From the IMG/VR virus record IMGVR_UViG_3300044641_001746, positions 1 to 32,791 of that record: a stretch of 32,791 nucleotides of DNA; one strand, given 5' to 3'. This document shows, one piece after another, positions 6,962-32,791 of this stretch (its first letter is position 1; every line of letters begins with the position of its first letter). The DNA comes from a virus. The position numbers and the translations under genes were made by a program. Below the pieces are notes generated by a model that ran no database searches, was not told the origin of the DNA, and saw nothing but the letters and a program-made list of their open reading frames with translations.

Positions 6962-7681
6962 TTATTTAGGTTGTCCACCACCTGGAGGTAGAGGGTCAAT
7001 TCTATTTTCTTGGTTATCATTCATCACATCTTCAGGATTAGAATACTTAATCTTGAAATCAGTATTTAGAATGTCTTGTTTACAATAATCCCATAGTCTT
7101 TCTTCCAATGGAAACTCCATATCAGGATTCCAACATGGTTTATTCTCACAAGAAATAAATTTAGAAGCATCCCTAGGGTCTCTAAAGATGCCTCTAATAG
7201 TTACCTTCTCTATAAGAGGATAATGTACCTTATCTTTAGAGATAAAATACATATATCCATTATATAAAAAAACACCTACAGAGTTGTAATTATATCTGCC
7301 ATTACCAAAGAACTCTGCTCTTCTGTATGGAATAACATTGAAAGGCAATCCAATAATACCTACTGGAGATACCTTGTCAATTAATTCTCCATCTGATAAG
7401 CTTAAGAAAGAGGGAAGCTTATTAACAGTTCTTAAAATAAGACAATCAGTAACAGTATCACAACATTCTGCTTGGTCTACTAATTGTACAGGAACACAGC
7501 TTAGTGATTGATAATATACATTAGGAATGGTTTTGTTAAACTTGTTATAAGTATTTTCAAACCATTTTACTCTCTTATTAATGATAAACTCATCAATAAG
7601 ACGATAGTCTAGCTTACTATCATCAGTGTACTGATTGATAAGTTCTAGTAATTCAAATCTAAGCTGGTTTAGTGATTTCAT
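6962..7681 (-). CDS. Ring/tail-stabilisation protein, crAss-like (239 aa)
   Basis: The protein starts with a helical region (residues 1-45; NQLRFELLELINQYTDDSKLDYRLIDEFI) followed by INKRVKWFENTYNK. A Cys-rich strand pair follows (C62, C73, C74, C80 in LSCVPVQ...AECCDTVTDCLILRT), then KLPSFLSL and a Phe/Tyr-rich sheet (GLPFNVIPYRRAEFFGNGRYN). Toward the end comes TIRGIFRDPRDASKF. This succession matches what I know of crAss-like neck/tail ring proteins. The C-terminal tail is Pro/Gly-rich and unstructured. The start codon overlaps the TAA of the phosphoesterase gene by one base (TAATG), so translation is coupled. It probably belongs to the dodecameric or hexameric rings under the portal. Confidence 0.72.
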   Translation of the reverse strand: MKSLNQLRFELLELINQYTDDSKLDYRLIDEFIINKRVKWFENTYNKFNKTIPNVYYQSLSCVPVQLVDQAECCDTVTDCLILRTVNKLPSFLSLSDGELIDKVSPVGIIGLPFNVIPYRRAEFFGNGRYNYNSVGVFLYNGYMYFISKDKVHYPLIEKVTIRGIFRDPRDASKFISCENKPCWNPDMEFPLEERLWDYCKQDILNTDFKIKYSNPEDVMNDNQENRIDPLPPGGGQPK

Positions 7682-8847
7682 TAGATATGTACTAATAGGT
7701 TAGCTGCTAATCCTTTATGTTTTGTAAAAATATAACTTTCAGCAGTTTTAGGTACACCAACATAACCTTGTTCATATTCCCATCTTCCTAAATCAGATAA
7801 ACATCTTAGGAATGAAATAGTACATCCTCTTAAGTCATGTGATGTTCTAGATTGAAATGTTTCTTTATGGTGAACATCTCCACAGAAATGATGAATATAA
7901 TCAATCTCTGGCATTATTTTCTTATTTTCAATCATAATGGTTGCAGGAAGGTCTTTAATATAATTCTTTTCTTTATCTCCATGGCTAAATCCTAATAGGT
8001 TAGAACCATAAGTGATATACTTCCTAGATGTAGTAGTATCATCAATACATACTGCACCATCTTTTTCATAAGTAGCTTTTAGCATTTGCCCTAAGTAGAA
8101 AAGCTTATCAGCATCATGGTTACTCATAACCATTACTACATATACACTACAGTATTGAGTTGCTTTATCTATGCACCTTCTAATAGTTCTGTAACCTTCC
8201 ATAAAGCTCTTTTTCCAAAATGGATTAGAATCTTGTGGAGTACCTTTTAAAGTAGTATTACGAGAATCATTAGCATTGAAGAAATCATTACCTACAGGAA
8301 ATATAATCATCTCTGGATTATATACTAAGCTTTGGCTAAGTAGTTTATCAAAAGCATTTTCAAAGATTTCACAATTGGTTTCTACAGAACCTGAAGGATT
8401 AGTTTCATCAATAAGAACTAACTTATCAATATGGGCATCATATAGGTTAATAACTGCTATACTCTCACCATGATTCCTTTTAATGGTAGGTTTGTGTACA
8501 GGTCTTTCATACTGCTCTAGTACATCTCTAAATTCTGCAAGCAGTTCTTGAGGATTACTATACCATTCATTTTTAGTATCAACACTAAACCTGTTTTCTC
8601 CTTTAAAATTCTGCCAGAATTTTACTTTCTTAACATCACTTAGTTTTAATCTATTAGATGCTAAAAAAGAATTAAATTCTGCTGCATCATTGTTAAACTC
8701 TACTGTTTTTTCTTCTTTAATCTGTTTAACAGCTTCCATTACATCTTCTAGATTAACCTTGTATCTAGTAGCAAACCTTTTGTGGTCATAGTTTCTAATG
8801 TAACTAGGATAGATGTGTAATTGTTTTTTGATTTCTTCTATAGTCAT
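7681..8847 (-). CDS. Calcineurin-like metallophosphoesterase in the tail module (388 aa)
   Basis: I chose the ATG at 8847 (MTIEEIKKQLHIYP) over the upstream ATG at 8898 because the latter would run through the end of the preceding gene and add a non-family N-terminus. Residues 1-125 are a helical extension (FATRYKVNLEDVMEAVKQIKEE). The catalytic domain carries the metallophosphoesterase motifs: D137-A-H139 (DxH), G-N-D188 in place of GDxxD, N243-H244-D (NHD/E), H289-G-D, and D324-V-H326-H327 near the end. All expected metal ligands appear present, so the enzyme is predicted active on a phosphomonoester or phosphodiester, possibly nucleic acid. Its place immediately before the ring-protein genes suggests a virion or assembly role, or ejection with the DNA. 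Substrate unknown. Confidence 0.8.
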   Translation of the reverse strand: MTIEEIKKQLHIYPSYIRNYDHKRFATRYKVNLEDVMEAVKQIKEEKTVEFNNDAAEFNSFLASNRLKLSDVKKVKFWQNFKGENRFSVDTKNEWYSNPQELLAEFRDVLEQYERPVHKPTIKRNHGESIAVINLYDAHIDKLVLIDETNPSGSVETNCEIFENAFDKLLSQSLVYNPEMIIFPVGNDFFNANDSRNTTLKGTPQDSNPFWKKSFMEGYRTIRRCIDKATQYCSVYVVMVMSNHDADKLFYLGQMLKATYEKDGAVCIDDTTTSRKYITYGSNLLGFSHGDKEKNYIKDLPATIMIENKKIMPEIDYIHHFCGDVHHKETFQSRTSHDLRGCTISFLRCLSDLGRWEYEQGYVGVPKTAESYIFTKHKGLAANLLVHI

Positions 8848-8878
8848 AGCAAATGATTTAAGTTTACAAATATTTACA

Positions 8879-9310
8879 TTAATTATTAGCAATAACAATA
8901 GTCAAAACTGTAATTATTGCTCCACCTGCTATACTGCCTACCTTAGCCCAAAACCTATGTCTTTTAACTTTCTTGGTTAATTCAATGTTTTCTTGGACTA
9001 ACAAATGGTTGATTTTCTTATGCTTATCTATCTGATTAGTTAAGTTAGTATTTTGACTTTCTAAGTTATCAACAACAGCTTGGTAATAACTTAATGAAGT
9101 ATCACAGATATTAAGAGCTACTTCCATAGAATCAATAATCTGAGTTTTGCCCTCAGATAGTTCTATTTCATAGATAATATTTTTAAGCTGTGGAAAAGTA
9201 ATACATACTACTGTATCATTCCCCAGCTTTACTTCTTTTGGATAAGAACTTTGAGAGATACTCAACTGACTTATCATTAGAAAGATGCTTAACAGAATCA
9301 GCTTTTGCAT
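8879..9310 (-). CDS. Spanin-like lysis protein with signal peptide and C-terminal membrane segment (143 aa)
   Basis: The N-terminus (MQKLILLSIFLMISQLSIS) is a clear signal sequence or membrane anchor without a lipobox Cys. Residues about 45-115 form a coiled coil (NNLxSQNTNLTNQIDKHKK pattern). Residues 121-141 are a hydrophobic C-terminal segment (AKVGSIAGGAIITVLTIVIA) followed by NN and the stop. A periplasmic coiled coil between two membrane-targeting ends is the layout of a spanin, which joins inner and outer membranes in the last step of lysis. The gene overlaps the 117 aa gene by 95 nt in another frame, as Rz/Rz1 pairs often do. A structural or tape-like role is the alternative. Confidence 0.6.
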   Translation of the reverse strand: MQKLILLSIFLMISQLSISQSSYPKEVKLGNDTVVCITFPQLKNIIYEIELSEGKTQIIDSMEVALNICDTSLSYYQAVVDNLESQNTNLTNQIDKHKKINHLLVQENIELTKKVKRHRFWAKVGSIAGGAIITVLTIVIANN

Positions 9311-27209: not shown

Positions 27210-29225
27210 CTATTCTTCTTGTATATTATTAAAGTGCTTCATCCATATATCTTGATTATCTCTTTTTTGTTTATACTTATCAAAATAAGAAGCGGTTTTT
27301 TTCTTTTGTGGTGATTGTTCTATTGATATACGATTAAACTCTTGTAAAGTTACATCATACCACATAACCATAAGCATAGCTGATACACGGTCAAAGTTAG
27401 CTCTAGGGTTAGGGTTCCATGCTATAAGTTCTTTTAGTAGACCAATAGATCTTATTTTTGTTAGGTTTTTTTCTTCGCTTTCTTCAGATATATTTTCATC
27501 TATCCAAGATTTTAGATATTCCATACCTCTTTCTTTTACTCCTTTACTCATAATAATTCCTTTGGAAGTATTAGTATTAGGTCTCCAAGTATTTCTATCT
27601 CTAAGATTGTAAGGAGTATCTGCTAAAAAGTGCAAAGCTTTTTTCTTTTCAAAATATGTGTACATACCAGTAATGTTTGCTTCATACATAGCAGTAGCTT
27701 GATAATAAATAATTAGTTTTCTACATGTTTCATAAAACTGGTCAGTAGTTTCTGGCCTACCAGTGTACTCAGCAACTATTCTTCTAGTAAGTCTATCAAA
27801 CATAAATATAGAACCTACTGAATCTGTACTAGAATTATCATATCTATAAGGGTCAATACCAGCAATATACCTAGCTATATTATCTCCATTTTCTGACAGT
27901 CTAGGTGTTTCATATATCTCAATTAAACCATGTTCTGGTTTTTGTACAGGATATTCTCTAAATGGAGTTCCACCTTGTACATCTTTCCATTTAAGTTCAC
28001 CTTCTTCAAACTGCAATATACCTATACTGTGTTTATCTAATTCAATGGAATCATCCATCTTAGATAAAACTCCTTTTAAATCTACAATAGGAAAGAAAAA
28101 AGAATGACTTTGTAAAAACGCTTCTTTAGGTGATAATGGAAACTGTGTAACAGAGTCAATTTTAGCTTGTTGGTCTGCACCTTGTTCAGCTCTTTTTCTT
28201 AAGTCCATAATAGACTGCCTAGCAACCTCTTCAAGAGAATTACCATAGTCATCTATCATAGGCTTATCCTTCCATTCAGGATGTTCTTTATAAGCATCTT
28301 TATAGGTACCAAATCTCATTCTAGTGGCTGGTATAAAAAAGCCACATTTTGAACCTATAGAATCTTCATCCCATATATTATCAAAGGCTAAGAAATTATA
28401 TTTCTCAGGATGAAAAAACATTTCAGCAAATTCCTGTGTACCCCCTTCCATATCACCACCAGTTCCTTGAATAATAGGTACACCAATAAGGTCATCACCA
28501 TCTTTCCAACAAGGTTCAGAAATATTATATGACTGAAGAAGGCCTGGCCATTTACCTGCTTCTTCAAATAAGAAAAGGTTACTAGATTTACCAATAGCAG
28601 CAAAAGGGTTATCCTTAAAAGTAAAAGAATGTATCTCAGACATATACCCTGACCAAGCTGATACTCCATCTACTGTCTTTTTATACCTAGCTTTTACAAA
28701 GTCCTTAGTATTAGGATTTCTTTCTTTACCCCATTCTGTATAAAGGTCTAAAAAGTTAAGGTCATCTAATGACATCCTCATAGTGTTCTCAGAAAGTTCT
28801 GACTGAAAAGCACCTATAATACATTTAGCATCTCTAAAAAAGCTAAACTCGTGTGCAATAATAGCTGCTGACTTATAAGAAAAACCAATCCTTCGTGGTT
28901 TTACTAGCACTATACCTTTTTGCTGTTTTCTAGCTTTTTCAATAAAAGTAAAATACTCTAAATCAACATCTGTAAAAACAGGAAACCCTTTATTTTTTCT
29001 ACCAGTCTTAGTATTCTTAAGCTCAATTTGTGTGTAGTTCAAGTAGAAATAATAAGCCCCTGGAATATATAGTTCTCCATGGGTAACTCCTTCTTTACAC
29101 TTTCTAGTCTCTTCTTCCCAAAACTCATCAAACTGATAAGTACCTATAGGGTATTGAGTATACACCCCATGGTCTTGAAAAGTATGTGATACTTCTTGAA
29201 AATACTTTGGTGGAATACTAATCCT
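27210..29225 (-). CDS. terL: Terminase large subunit (ATPase-nuclease, 671 aa)
   Basis: The protein drives ATP-dependent genome packaging and cuts the concatemer. An N-terminal segment (PPKYFQEVSHTFQDHGVYT) precedes the ATPase: Walker A KPRRIGFSYKSA at 109-120, Walker B NLFLFEE at 216-222, and coupling motif QGTGGD at 253-258. The RNase-H-like nuclease shows AGIDPY (Asp458), a YEAN acidic site (Glu515) and FDRVSA (Asp612). I prefer the ATG at 29225 because it gives an 8-nt overlap with the upstream gene; an in-frame ATG at 29267 would add 14 residues and a 50-nt overlap. The gene ends in TAG. An AACT-N15-CGTA element is embedded in its 3' end, 117 nt before the portal gene. Confidence 0.92.
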   Translation of the reverse strand, partial: RISIPPKYFQEVSHTFQDHGVYTQYPIGTYQFDEFWEEETRKCKEGVTHGELYIPGAYYFYLNYTQIELKNTKTGRKNKGFPVFTDVDLEYFTFIEKARKQQKGIVLVKPRRIGFSYKSAAIIAHEFSFFRDAKCIIGAFQSELSENTMRMSLDDLNFLDLYTEWGKERNPNTKDFVKARYKKTVDGVSAWSGYMSEIHSFTFKDNPFAAIGKSSNLFLFEEAGKWPGLLQSYNISEPCWKDGDDLIGVPIIQGTGGDMEGGTQEFAEMFFHPEKYNFLAFDNIWDEDSIGSKCGFFIPATRMRFGTYKDAYKEHPEWKDKPMIDDYGNSLEEVARQSIMDLRKRAEQGADQQAKIDSVTQFPLSPKEAFLQSHSFFFPIVDLKGVLSKMDDSIELDKHSIGILQFEEGELKWKDVQGGTPFREYPVQKPEHGLIEIYETPRLSENGDNIARYIAGIDPYRYDNSSTDSVGSIFMFDRLTRRIVAEYTGRPETTDQFYETCRKLIIYYQATAMYEANITGMYTYFEKKKALHFLADTPYNLRDRNTWRPNTNTSKGIIMSKGVKERGMEYLKSWIDENISEESEEKNLTKIRSIGLLKELIAWNPNPRANFDRVSAMLMVMWYDVTLQEFNRISIEQSPQKKKTASYFDKYKQKRDNQDIWMKHFNNIQEE
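27325..27353 (-). promoter_or_regulatory. Late-promoter-like element E inside the 3' end of terL
   Basis: GTAACTTT and TCGTATATC show the same AACT-N15-CGTA spacing. It lies in the terminase coding sequence, 117 nt upstream of the portal ATG, where it could raise portal expression above terminase. Confidence 0.5.
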
Positions 29226-29733
29226 CATACTTTCTAGTTCTTTTCTCTCCAGACCTTTTAGTAGCATCTGTAGATTTTTCTTTATTTACAGCATCTTCTA
29301 AAGTGGACAATTGAGATACAAGTTTTGATGTACTTTCAATAGCCTTAAGTACTGGGCCTAAAGAATCTTCTGTAATATCAGTGTTCTTTAAGAAGTTAGC
29401 TACATCATCAATTTTACCTTTAACACTACTAAGTAACCTTTGTGTAGGAGTTTCTGACATTAGTATGTACTTATCCATAGCAACCTTTAGTGCTGGAGTT
29501 TCTTTTACTTCTCCTTTAAAAATATCATTACCTACAAACTCTTTCCTTTTATGTACTGGGAAATTACTATAAGGACTACCAGAGTCTATTATAAAATATA
29601 TATAAGCAAACTGTTTAAATACTAAGTCTTTGGTTTTGCTTTTATCTGCTTCCCATAGTTCTTTAAACTCTGGTATCAATAATAGCTCAGTATCAAAAAC
29701 TACTTTATTGTTAGCAAGATTAAATATCTTCAT
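29218..29733 (-). CDS. TerL-adjacent protein, candidate small terminase (171 aa)
   Basis: Residues 1-90 contain KVVFDTELLLIPEFKELWEAD, FKQFAYIYFIIDSGSPYSNFP and KRKEFVGNDIFK, a set I associate with a conserved hypothetical protein of crAss-like phages. Residues 95-171 are helical and charged (SVKGKIDDVANFLKNTDI, LVSQLSTLEDAVNKEKS), ending in a basic RSGEKRTRKYED tail. It overlaps TerL and follows an HU/IHF-like gene by 14 nt overlap. A helical protein directly before TerL is the classical location of the small terminase, but no HTH is evident, so this is only a positional hypothesis. Confidence 0.62.
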   Translation of the reverse strand: MKIFNLANNKVVFDTELLLIPEFKELWEADKSKTKDLVFKQFAYIYFIIDSGSPYSNFPVHKRKEFVGNDIFKGEVKETPALKVAMDKYILMSETPTQRLLSSVKGKIDDVANFLKNTDITEDSLGPVLKAIESTSKLVSQLSTLEDAVNKEKSTDATKRSGEKRTRKYED

Positions 29734-30537: not shown

Positions 30538-30740
30538 AGCTTTTCTTTTTTAATACCAAATGTAGCATTGGCATATATCTTTATTTGGTCAGTTAAATAG
30601 TGCCTTACTATTCCAGTATCACAATGCACTACACACCAAACATCATTCTCAAAAGTACCAGAATCCCTAACATAGATAGCATAGCCATCTTTGTTATCCT
30701 CTACTACTACAGGAATGGGATTATGGAATTCATGAACCAT
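30534..30740 (-). CDS. Small hypothetical protein (68 aa)
   Basis: Not recognised. The sequence is mostly beta (IPVVVEDNKDGYAIYVRDSG, NDVWCVVHCDTGIVRHYLT) and ends in a basic helix with KKEKL. It overlaps the next gene by 4 nt (ATGA) and its own start overlaps the preceding gene by 11 nt. It is part of the run of small genes upstream of the packaging genes. Confidence 0.6.
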   Translation of the reverse strand: MVHEFHNPIPVVVEDNKDGYAIYVRDSGTFENDVWCVVHCDTGIVRHYLTDQIKIYANATFGIKKEKL

Positions 30741-30924
30741 GATTCTTTTCCTCCTTTAACTGTTGCTTTCTTAATTCATGCTTTGTGCATATTTCTGTTT
30801 CAATGTAGTTACACCCCTTTAAACAGTAAGTGCCATTAATAACACAAATATTATTAACATTAAACCTTTCGTCTATTACTACCTCATCAGGTTTTCCTTT
30901 CATATTAGTATATGTCTTTCCCAT
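30730..30924 (-). CDS. Small Cys-containing hypothetical protein (64 aa)
   Basis: Not recognised. Four Cys appear in 25 residues (NNICVINGTYCLKGCNYIETEICTKH) with a His two residues after the last, so a small zinc-binding knuckle is possible. The charged C-terminus is helical. It starts 1 nt after the 54 aa gene ends. Confidence 0.58.
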   Translation of the reverse strand: MGKTYTNMKGKPDEVVIDERFNVNNICVINGTYCLKGCNYIETEICTKHELRKQQLKEEKNHGS

Positions 30925-32178: not shown

Positions 32179-32203
32179 TTTTTTTAATTTTAAGATTATA
32201 GTA

Positions 32204-32211
32204 CAAAGCTA
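32204..32211 (-). promoter_or_regulatory. Candidate Bacteroidota sigma-A -7 element (TAGCTTTG)
   Basis: TAGCTTTG on the minus strand matches TAnnTTTG exactly and lies 26 nt before the first ATG of the late operon. No clear TTTG -33 element is seen at the usual distance. The A/T-only leader after it is typical of Bacteroidota initiation regions. Confidence 0.5.
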
Positions 32212-32219
32212 CATTAAAA

Positions 32220-32235
32220 ATTCTACATATAGAAT
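32220..32235. promoter_or_regulatory. Palindrome, possible operator
   Basis: ATTCTA-CATA-TAGAAT is an inverted repeat with 6-bp arms centred about 20 bp upstream of the TAGCTTTG element, a place where a repressor or activator dimer could control the first late promoter. Confidence 0.45.
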
Positions 32236-32376
32236 ATAAAAGATATTAACAATTGTTTTGAGTTATTGTCAATTTGTATGGAATTGCAACTTTTCTCATC
32301 TGGCAGTCGTACTAATCAATAGATTCTTGCAGAACTGTTTTATAGTACTGCGAACACTTCGTTACAATGTAAACTT

Positions 32377-32580
32377 GGGGGGAGGTGTTTTATTAAAGAG
32401 GTACCCCCCTTCAAATATAAGTACCCCCACTACCTAGTAACTTTTAAGATAAGCCCCCCTATACTAAGGTACAATAATAATACCCCCCACCCCTTTTGTA
32501 ATTTTATAAAACACCCCCCACCACTTTTAAAAAATACTTGGTGTATGTAAATGGGTGCCACCTATTAAACATCCCCCCTA
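32377..32580. repeat. Phased C6-tract array
   Basis: Runs of six C begin at 32404, 32454, 32483, 32514 and 32573, with a run of five at 32424 and six G at 32377-32382. Spacings are 20, 30, 29, 31 and 59 bp (the last about two units). Flanks resemble ACCCCCC followed by (A/T) and C/T-rich sequence, then an A/T-rich spacer often containing CTTTTA. Such tracts occur nowhere else in this AT-rich window. Confidence 0.8.
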
Positions 32581-32609
32581 CCTAAGTTCGTAACCAAAAA
32601 ATCAAAATT

Positions 32610-32791
32610 ATGTTAAACATTAAGGTTCACCGTAAAACCGGTAATGCAACTTCTAACCAGGAAATTGCAAATGCAGAATGTGCAAACATTGCCAAGGCTG
32701 CAGCATTGCTATGTGATTTAGTAGGCATGGATAATGTCATACTTAAAGGCAAAAGTGATGCTGGAAGGCCTTACTATTACATGTATCCTGA
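32610..32791 (+). CDS. Divergent gene, N-terminal 60 codons only
   Basis: The ATG at 32610 opens a plus-strand frame that stays open to the window edge. The start (MLNIKVHRKTGNATSNQEIA) is basic, followed by an Ala-rich helix (AKAAALLCDLVGMDNVIL) and a polar GKSDAGRPYYYMYP. No family recognised. Because it is divergent from the late genes, it probably begins the early/replication arm of the phage. Codons here include more CAG, GCC and GGC than the late genes. Confidence 0.65.
   Translation, partial: MLNIKVHRKTGNATSNQEIANAECANIAKAAALLCDLVGMDNVILKGKSDAGRPYYYMYP

Follow-up and report, generated by a model that had tools for sequence, protein, structure and literature searches.

An array of C-runs lies at the divergent switch between the two gene arms of a crAss-like phage, and its extra C6 runs are a lineage-specific expansion of a conserved element of about 60 bp. 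Judged by sequence comparison, this element is common to most of the crAss-like phages we examined and stands directly upstream of their first early gene. The key feature is the conserved motif adjoining the last C6, rather than the array by itself. We infer, with moderate confidence, that a cis-element conserved across most of Crassvirales, expanded into the array in this lineage, directs the expression of the early arm from the divergent switch as an early promoter or leader, probably for the virion RNA polymerase. The stretch of DNA analysed, called the window hereafter, is the IMG/VR record IMGVR_UViG_3300044641_001746 at its full length of 32,791 nucleotides. We found no earlier description of the element, or of an early promoter consensus of crAss-like phages, in the open literature, and consider its novelty provisional.

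Genomic context of the array

The left arm of the window, on the minus strand, has PHROG matches for the terminase large subunit, the portal and the MCP. The best known relatives of its terminase are crAss-like, with 34-36% identity to those of crAss-like phages of the human gut. With terminase, portal and capsid genes present, the phage is, by its gene content, crAss-like (Crassvirales). The contig stops 180 bp into the right arm and ends short of the gene of the giant virion RNA polymerase with the DxDxD motif, which is present in a relative (G006). The 5,160-aa protein of this relative aligns with gp66 of phi14:2 across the catalytic motif (ADFDVD vs SDFDID).

The control region is a module boundary. 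The window and the contig G001 (L039) are 97-99% identical up to the last C6 and then carry unrelated first early genes (32579-32791), their local alignment stopping at 32598. Assemblies often break at the control region. A blastn search of the region against known phages returned a single weak match (73%), at 30546-30744 and within a gene; it corresponds to MW202828 (Manatee Spring), with genes annotated as hypothetical protein and FAD-dependent thymidylate synthase. Further from the switch, an exonuclease (phrog_704, 7681-8898) is encoded in the structural arm rather than with the replication genes. The late-arm leader contains an inverted repeat, GTACTA/TAGTAC (32309-32348), which, by eye in the alignment, seems compensatory in relatives: GTTCTA/TAGAAC in L007 and GTATTAAA/TTTAATAC in L009.

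Table 1. Features of the window around the early/late switch.
Feature	Position	Strand	Remarks
Terminase large subunit, late arm	27210-29267	-	phrog_6681
First late-arm gene, 145 aa	31741-32178	-	No PHROG match
Divergent intergenic control region	32179-32609		Separates the minus-strand late arm (left) from the plus-strand early arm (right); ORF map, synteny with the crAss-like early/late switch
Putative partial mirrored copy facing the late arm, GGGTACCTCTTTAATAAAACACCTCCCCCC	32377-32419	-	Includes G6; strongly conserved in the near lineage, invariant alignment columns
G6 run	32377-32382		Inside the left mirrored block
C6 of array	32404-32409	+	Also 3' arm of the left stem with G6
C5 of array	32424-32428	+	
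C6 of array	32454-32459	+	
C6 of array	32483-32488	+	GGTAC-N9 in front
C6 of array	32514-32519	+	
Conserved core element, ~60 bp	32525-32588	+	A/T tract, GTGTATGTAAATGGGTGCCACCTA (32541-32564), spacer, C6 at 32573; profile match, alignment
C6	32573-32578	+	Run kept across lineages; nearest the early arm
First early-arm gene, cut by contig end	32610-32791	+	Differs between near-identical phages

The array of C-runs in the window and its near relatives

Six C5/C6 runs and one G6 run were identified in the window, all within the 431-bp divergent intergenic region (Table 1). The GC content of the window is 33.6%, runs of six are absent outside the array region, and 7 runs of five are scattered elsewhere. 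When 200 sequences were simulated with a first-order Markov model using the window's own statistics, the maximum was 3 C5+ runs per 200 bp, against the 6 observed. With the local composition, at least six runs within 430 bp arise in 0.7% of simulations. Hence, the array reported in the initial annotation is real, since no other part of the window has runs of six, and such clustering almost never arises in simulated sequence. It also lies, as was claimed, between the two genome arms, in a non-coding stretch between divergent gene starts. The proposed step of about 30 bp holds for three start-to-start steps (30, 29, and 31 bp) and for a double step (59 bp), but not for the remaining one, which is 20 bp.

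Two structural proposals attached to the array fared less well. The C-runs were thought to present the same face of the helix at each site, and their phase coherence is indeed high in the window at 10.0 bp per turn (R 0.96), but it is lost at 10.5 bp per turn (R 0.21). The gaps vary in relatives, most of which lack a consistent phase of the C-runs, and the conserved C-run spacing of 28 bp is a non-integral number of helical turns. Helix-face phasing was therefore rejected. The alternative of G-quadruplexes on the G-rich strand is not supported, as the array lacks any canonical G3N1-7 motif and its loops would be 14-25 nt long.

IMG/VR contigs whose terminases are 77-100% identical carry the array at the corresponding position. 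In this near lineage, a strongly conserved left zone (G6 run, GGTGTTTTATTAAAGAGG, C-run) is followed by a middle zone in which the number of C-runs varies and successive C5+ runs are 8-38 bp apart, and then by a conserved right zone, GTGTATGTAAATGGGTNCC..CATCCCCCC, 30-33 nt upstream of the early ATG. Since the locus, strand, and approximate spacing of the array are kept in relatives, it is neither peculiar to this contig nor the product of an assembly error. In one contig (L103, 600-1350), three pairs of C6 runs, all with a spacing of exactly 28 bp, stand ahead of GGGGAGCTnAAACATCCC-type repeats, which looks like an independent array expansion. A reading of the left block as a small ORF was rejected, as a conserved frame is absent by eye.

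A conserved core element adjoins the last C6

The core element consists of an A/T tract, GTGTATGTnAATGGGTnCCACCTA, about 9 bp, and a C-run, the last C of which is 31 nt upstream of the early-arm ATG in the window. An nhmmer model trained without the window lineage gave only one strong match in the window, at the core element on the plus strand (25.6 bits, E 3.4e-7). The second-best match of the same blind model (E 0.017) is on the minus strand at the left G6 block, and the local alignment score of this mirrored copy was equalled by 34 of 2000 shuffles. These results are suggestive, although not proof, of the left G6 block being a partial duplicate of the element, oriented towards the late arm. 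The earlier view of the array as a protein-binding site is retained in part: a putative cis-acting site for a phage machinery is the best reading, but the array alone is not the key to it.

The element across Crassvirales

Distant relatives were gathered through a wider terminase search. In phages with 33-55% identical terminases, C-runs are found at the same divergent switch and invariably on the early strand. Among cultured or complete genomes, those of crAss001, phi14:2, DAC15/17, cr85_1, cr112_1, cr10_1, cr4_1, and cr118_1 share the same layout: a T/A tract, a TGTG-type motif, a C-run, a second C-run 24-30 bp on, and the early ATG. By family, the element lies ahead of the first early gene, and on its strand, in Steigviridae (crAss001, phi14:2, DAC15/17), Suoliviridae, some Intestiviridae (cr11_1 and cr3_1), and many environmental lineages. 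It is nearly unique within each genome. We failed to identify it in the 26 kb examined around the p-crAssphage switch and in the stretches of crAss002 examined, whose tail was searched by pattern only.

To quantify these trends, we tabulated the upstream regions of 24 lineages (200 nt each; 330 nt for cr11_1). They contain 71 C4+ runs and 15 G4+ runs, with C exceeding G in 20 of the 24 lineages (p 0.0015). A pair of C4+ runs 27-30 bp apart is found in 15 lineages; in 19, the early ATG follows the last C-run at a distance of 26-67 nt. The gaps between C-runs in distant phages are of 27-30 or 13-14 bp.

Thirty elements were then aligned and, for each family, a nucleotide profile built without that family was scanned against its genomes. 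In 24 of 26 stretches, the best match fell at the expected place and on the early strand (E<0.05 in 19). This leave-one-family-out design is not fully blind, because the training elements were chosen by eye at the switch and aligned together, and the unseen genomes number only four. The models missed G017 and crAss001 itself. Outside the training set, the best match was at the switch in L094 (E 6e-7), cr109_1 (E 7e-4), and cr108_1 (E 4e-4), and more weakly in ctbg_1 (E 0.18), where it falls on a C5 pair 28 bp apart. The stretch of cr272_1 ended short of the switch. Annotated ORFs of cr108_1 (L154, about 7017-7106) and ctbg_1 (L155, about 37-112) run across the element on the opposite strand and are likely to be false gene calls.

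A probable early promoter or possible packaging end

Transcription of the arm that follows the element is early in crAss001, beginning within 10 min (PMC8375218), and the similarly organised operon of phi14:2 has been ascribed to the virion (injected) polymerase (PMC8375218; review PMC10136315). These observations, together with the gp66-like protein of the relative, lead us to read the element as an early promoter with an initially transcribed leader. Its location upstream of the first early-arm gene, on the strand of this gene, and its sequence kept between families are what one would expect of such a promoter. Recognition and melting would take place at the A/T tract plus TGTATGTnA...GGGTnCCACCTA, the downstream C-run or C-runs would lie at or just past the start site, and transcription would be carried out by the giant virion RNA polymerase that enters with the DNA. 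The extra C6 units (GGTAC/AT-rich/C6, in steps of about 30 bp) may be additional partial sites raising occupancy, and the mirrored left copy may serve the opposite arm.

The putative promoter shares its genome position, at the start of the early arm, and its phage order with the early promoters of the virion polymerases of phi14:2 (gp66) and crAss001. The polymerase gene is present in a relative of the window. No consensus for this polymerase was found in the literature examined, and the identity of the element with such promoters is presumed. The hairpin promoters of the phage N4 vRNAP and the AT-rich promoters of the P23-45 vRNAP are likewise sites of injected polymerases at the first-expressed genes, with an A/T-rich part. 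However, these occur in several copies per genome, against about one for the element, which also lacks a conserved small 3-nt-loop hairpin and is unrelated in sequence as far as examined. Other observations count against a promoter. The element is absent around the p-crAssphage switch and from the crAss002 stretches examined, although giant polymerases are encoded by these phages as well. A single site per genome is a low number for an early promoter. Finally, the annotated genome end of DAC15/17 lies inside the element. A promoter motif repeated along the whole early arm, TATGTGNAAGTGG, was considered separately and rejected, as it showed no excess over a reversed control.

The annotated repeat ends of DAC15/17 in the element and the reported terminal repeats of crAss001 make a packaging-end role, alone or combined with early transcription at the entering end, a serious alternative. 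A terminase cut inside the element would then produce the right genome end, beside the early region entering first, which we consider rather unlikely. The records of DAC15 and DAC17 have annotated exact direct terminal repeats of 1842 and 1839 bp (L149 1-1842, L142 1-1839) that end within the element, between ...CTA and ATTAACTCATGGTCCCCCC, 13 bp before the first C-run; yet the two phages are near-identical and amount to one observation. crAss001 is reported with a direct terminal repeat of 576 bp (PMC6235969). The array is where several environmental contigs stop (L005, L011, L019, L022, L050) and where the cr85_1 record starts, but these ends have no common coordinate and may result from strain mosaicism, as the window and G001 diverge directly past the last C6. 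Moreover, a terminal-repeat phage does not of itself cause assembly breaks there. The site is single-copy and near terL, whereas a packaging site would not be expected to keep a fixed strand and lie so close to the early ATG. Packaging mode also failed as a correlate of the element, as cr11_1 and cr3_1 carry it although crAss002, of the same family Intestiviridae, is headful. In direct-terminal-repeat phages of the T7/N4 type, the genome end is near the early region, as is the DAC15/17 repeat end in the element. The likeness is limited to one independent case, and no significant motif is shared between the two ends of the DAC17 repeat. A perfect short hairpin, GGAATAA..TTATTCC, stands before the left end of this repeat. 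Finally, a single site might couple packaging and early transcription: a cut just past CTA would place the C-run about 13 bp from the entering end, the virion RNA polymerase would start there, and the C6 array would multiply the loading sites. We regard this combination as improbable.

Less likely explanations: replication origin, RNA leader, or chance

The tandem units at about 30 bp adjoining an A/T tract recall iteron-type origins, and the G-runs on the late-arm RNA strand could prime an R-loop origin from the leftward transcript. The GC skew, which had been suggested as a check for an origin, has its cumulative minimum at the switch in G017 (18,577) and cr10_1 (35,435), but divergent transcription yields the same skew. 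Distant phages have one or two C-runs, against six or seven here, so that iterons are not a conserved property; neither their number nor their spacing is kept across relatives, no initiator was identified, and the conserved part is tied to the early ATG. An origin is, for us, a doubtful explanation. The C-runs in the presumed 5' leader and the G-poor early strand would also suit a leader acting as RNA, either as a Rho or RNA-binding site or as a hairpin regulator, and hairpins of the C-run/GGGG/C-run type are found in Steigviridae and some Suoliviridae. Yet, the GGGG partner is absent from the window lineage and many others, and conservation reaches upstream of the C-runs into the A/T tract. 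A structured RNA was rejected because the folding of the window leader did not surpass that of shuffled sequences (z -1.5 and -1.1) and the non-coding stretch with the array has no Rfam match. We judge a function as RNA very unlikely. As for chance, low-complexity drift, or assembly error, run lengths do differ among relatives (C5-C10), as is typical of homopolymers, but position, strand, and sequence are kept over families with about 30% terminase identity, and the simulations also argue against chance. The conservation of the element refutes these explanations, which we find hardly credible.

Implications for Crassvirales

Crassvirales, which rank among the most abundant human gut viruses, possess an unusual RNA polymerase that is injected. 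We found no published statement of the DNA that this polymerase recognises in the open literature. An element of about 60 bp that is common to cultured phages (crAss001, phi14:2, DAC17) and to many uncultured ones provides a concrete sequence for tests of promoter, packaging-end, or origin function. It is also a marker for finding the early/late switch and for orienting fragmentary crAss-like contigs.
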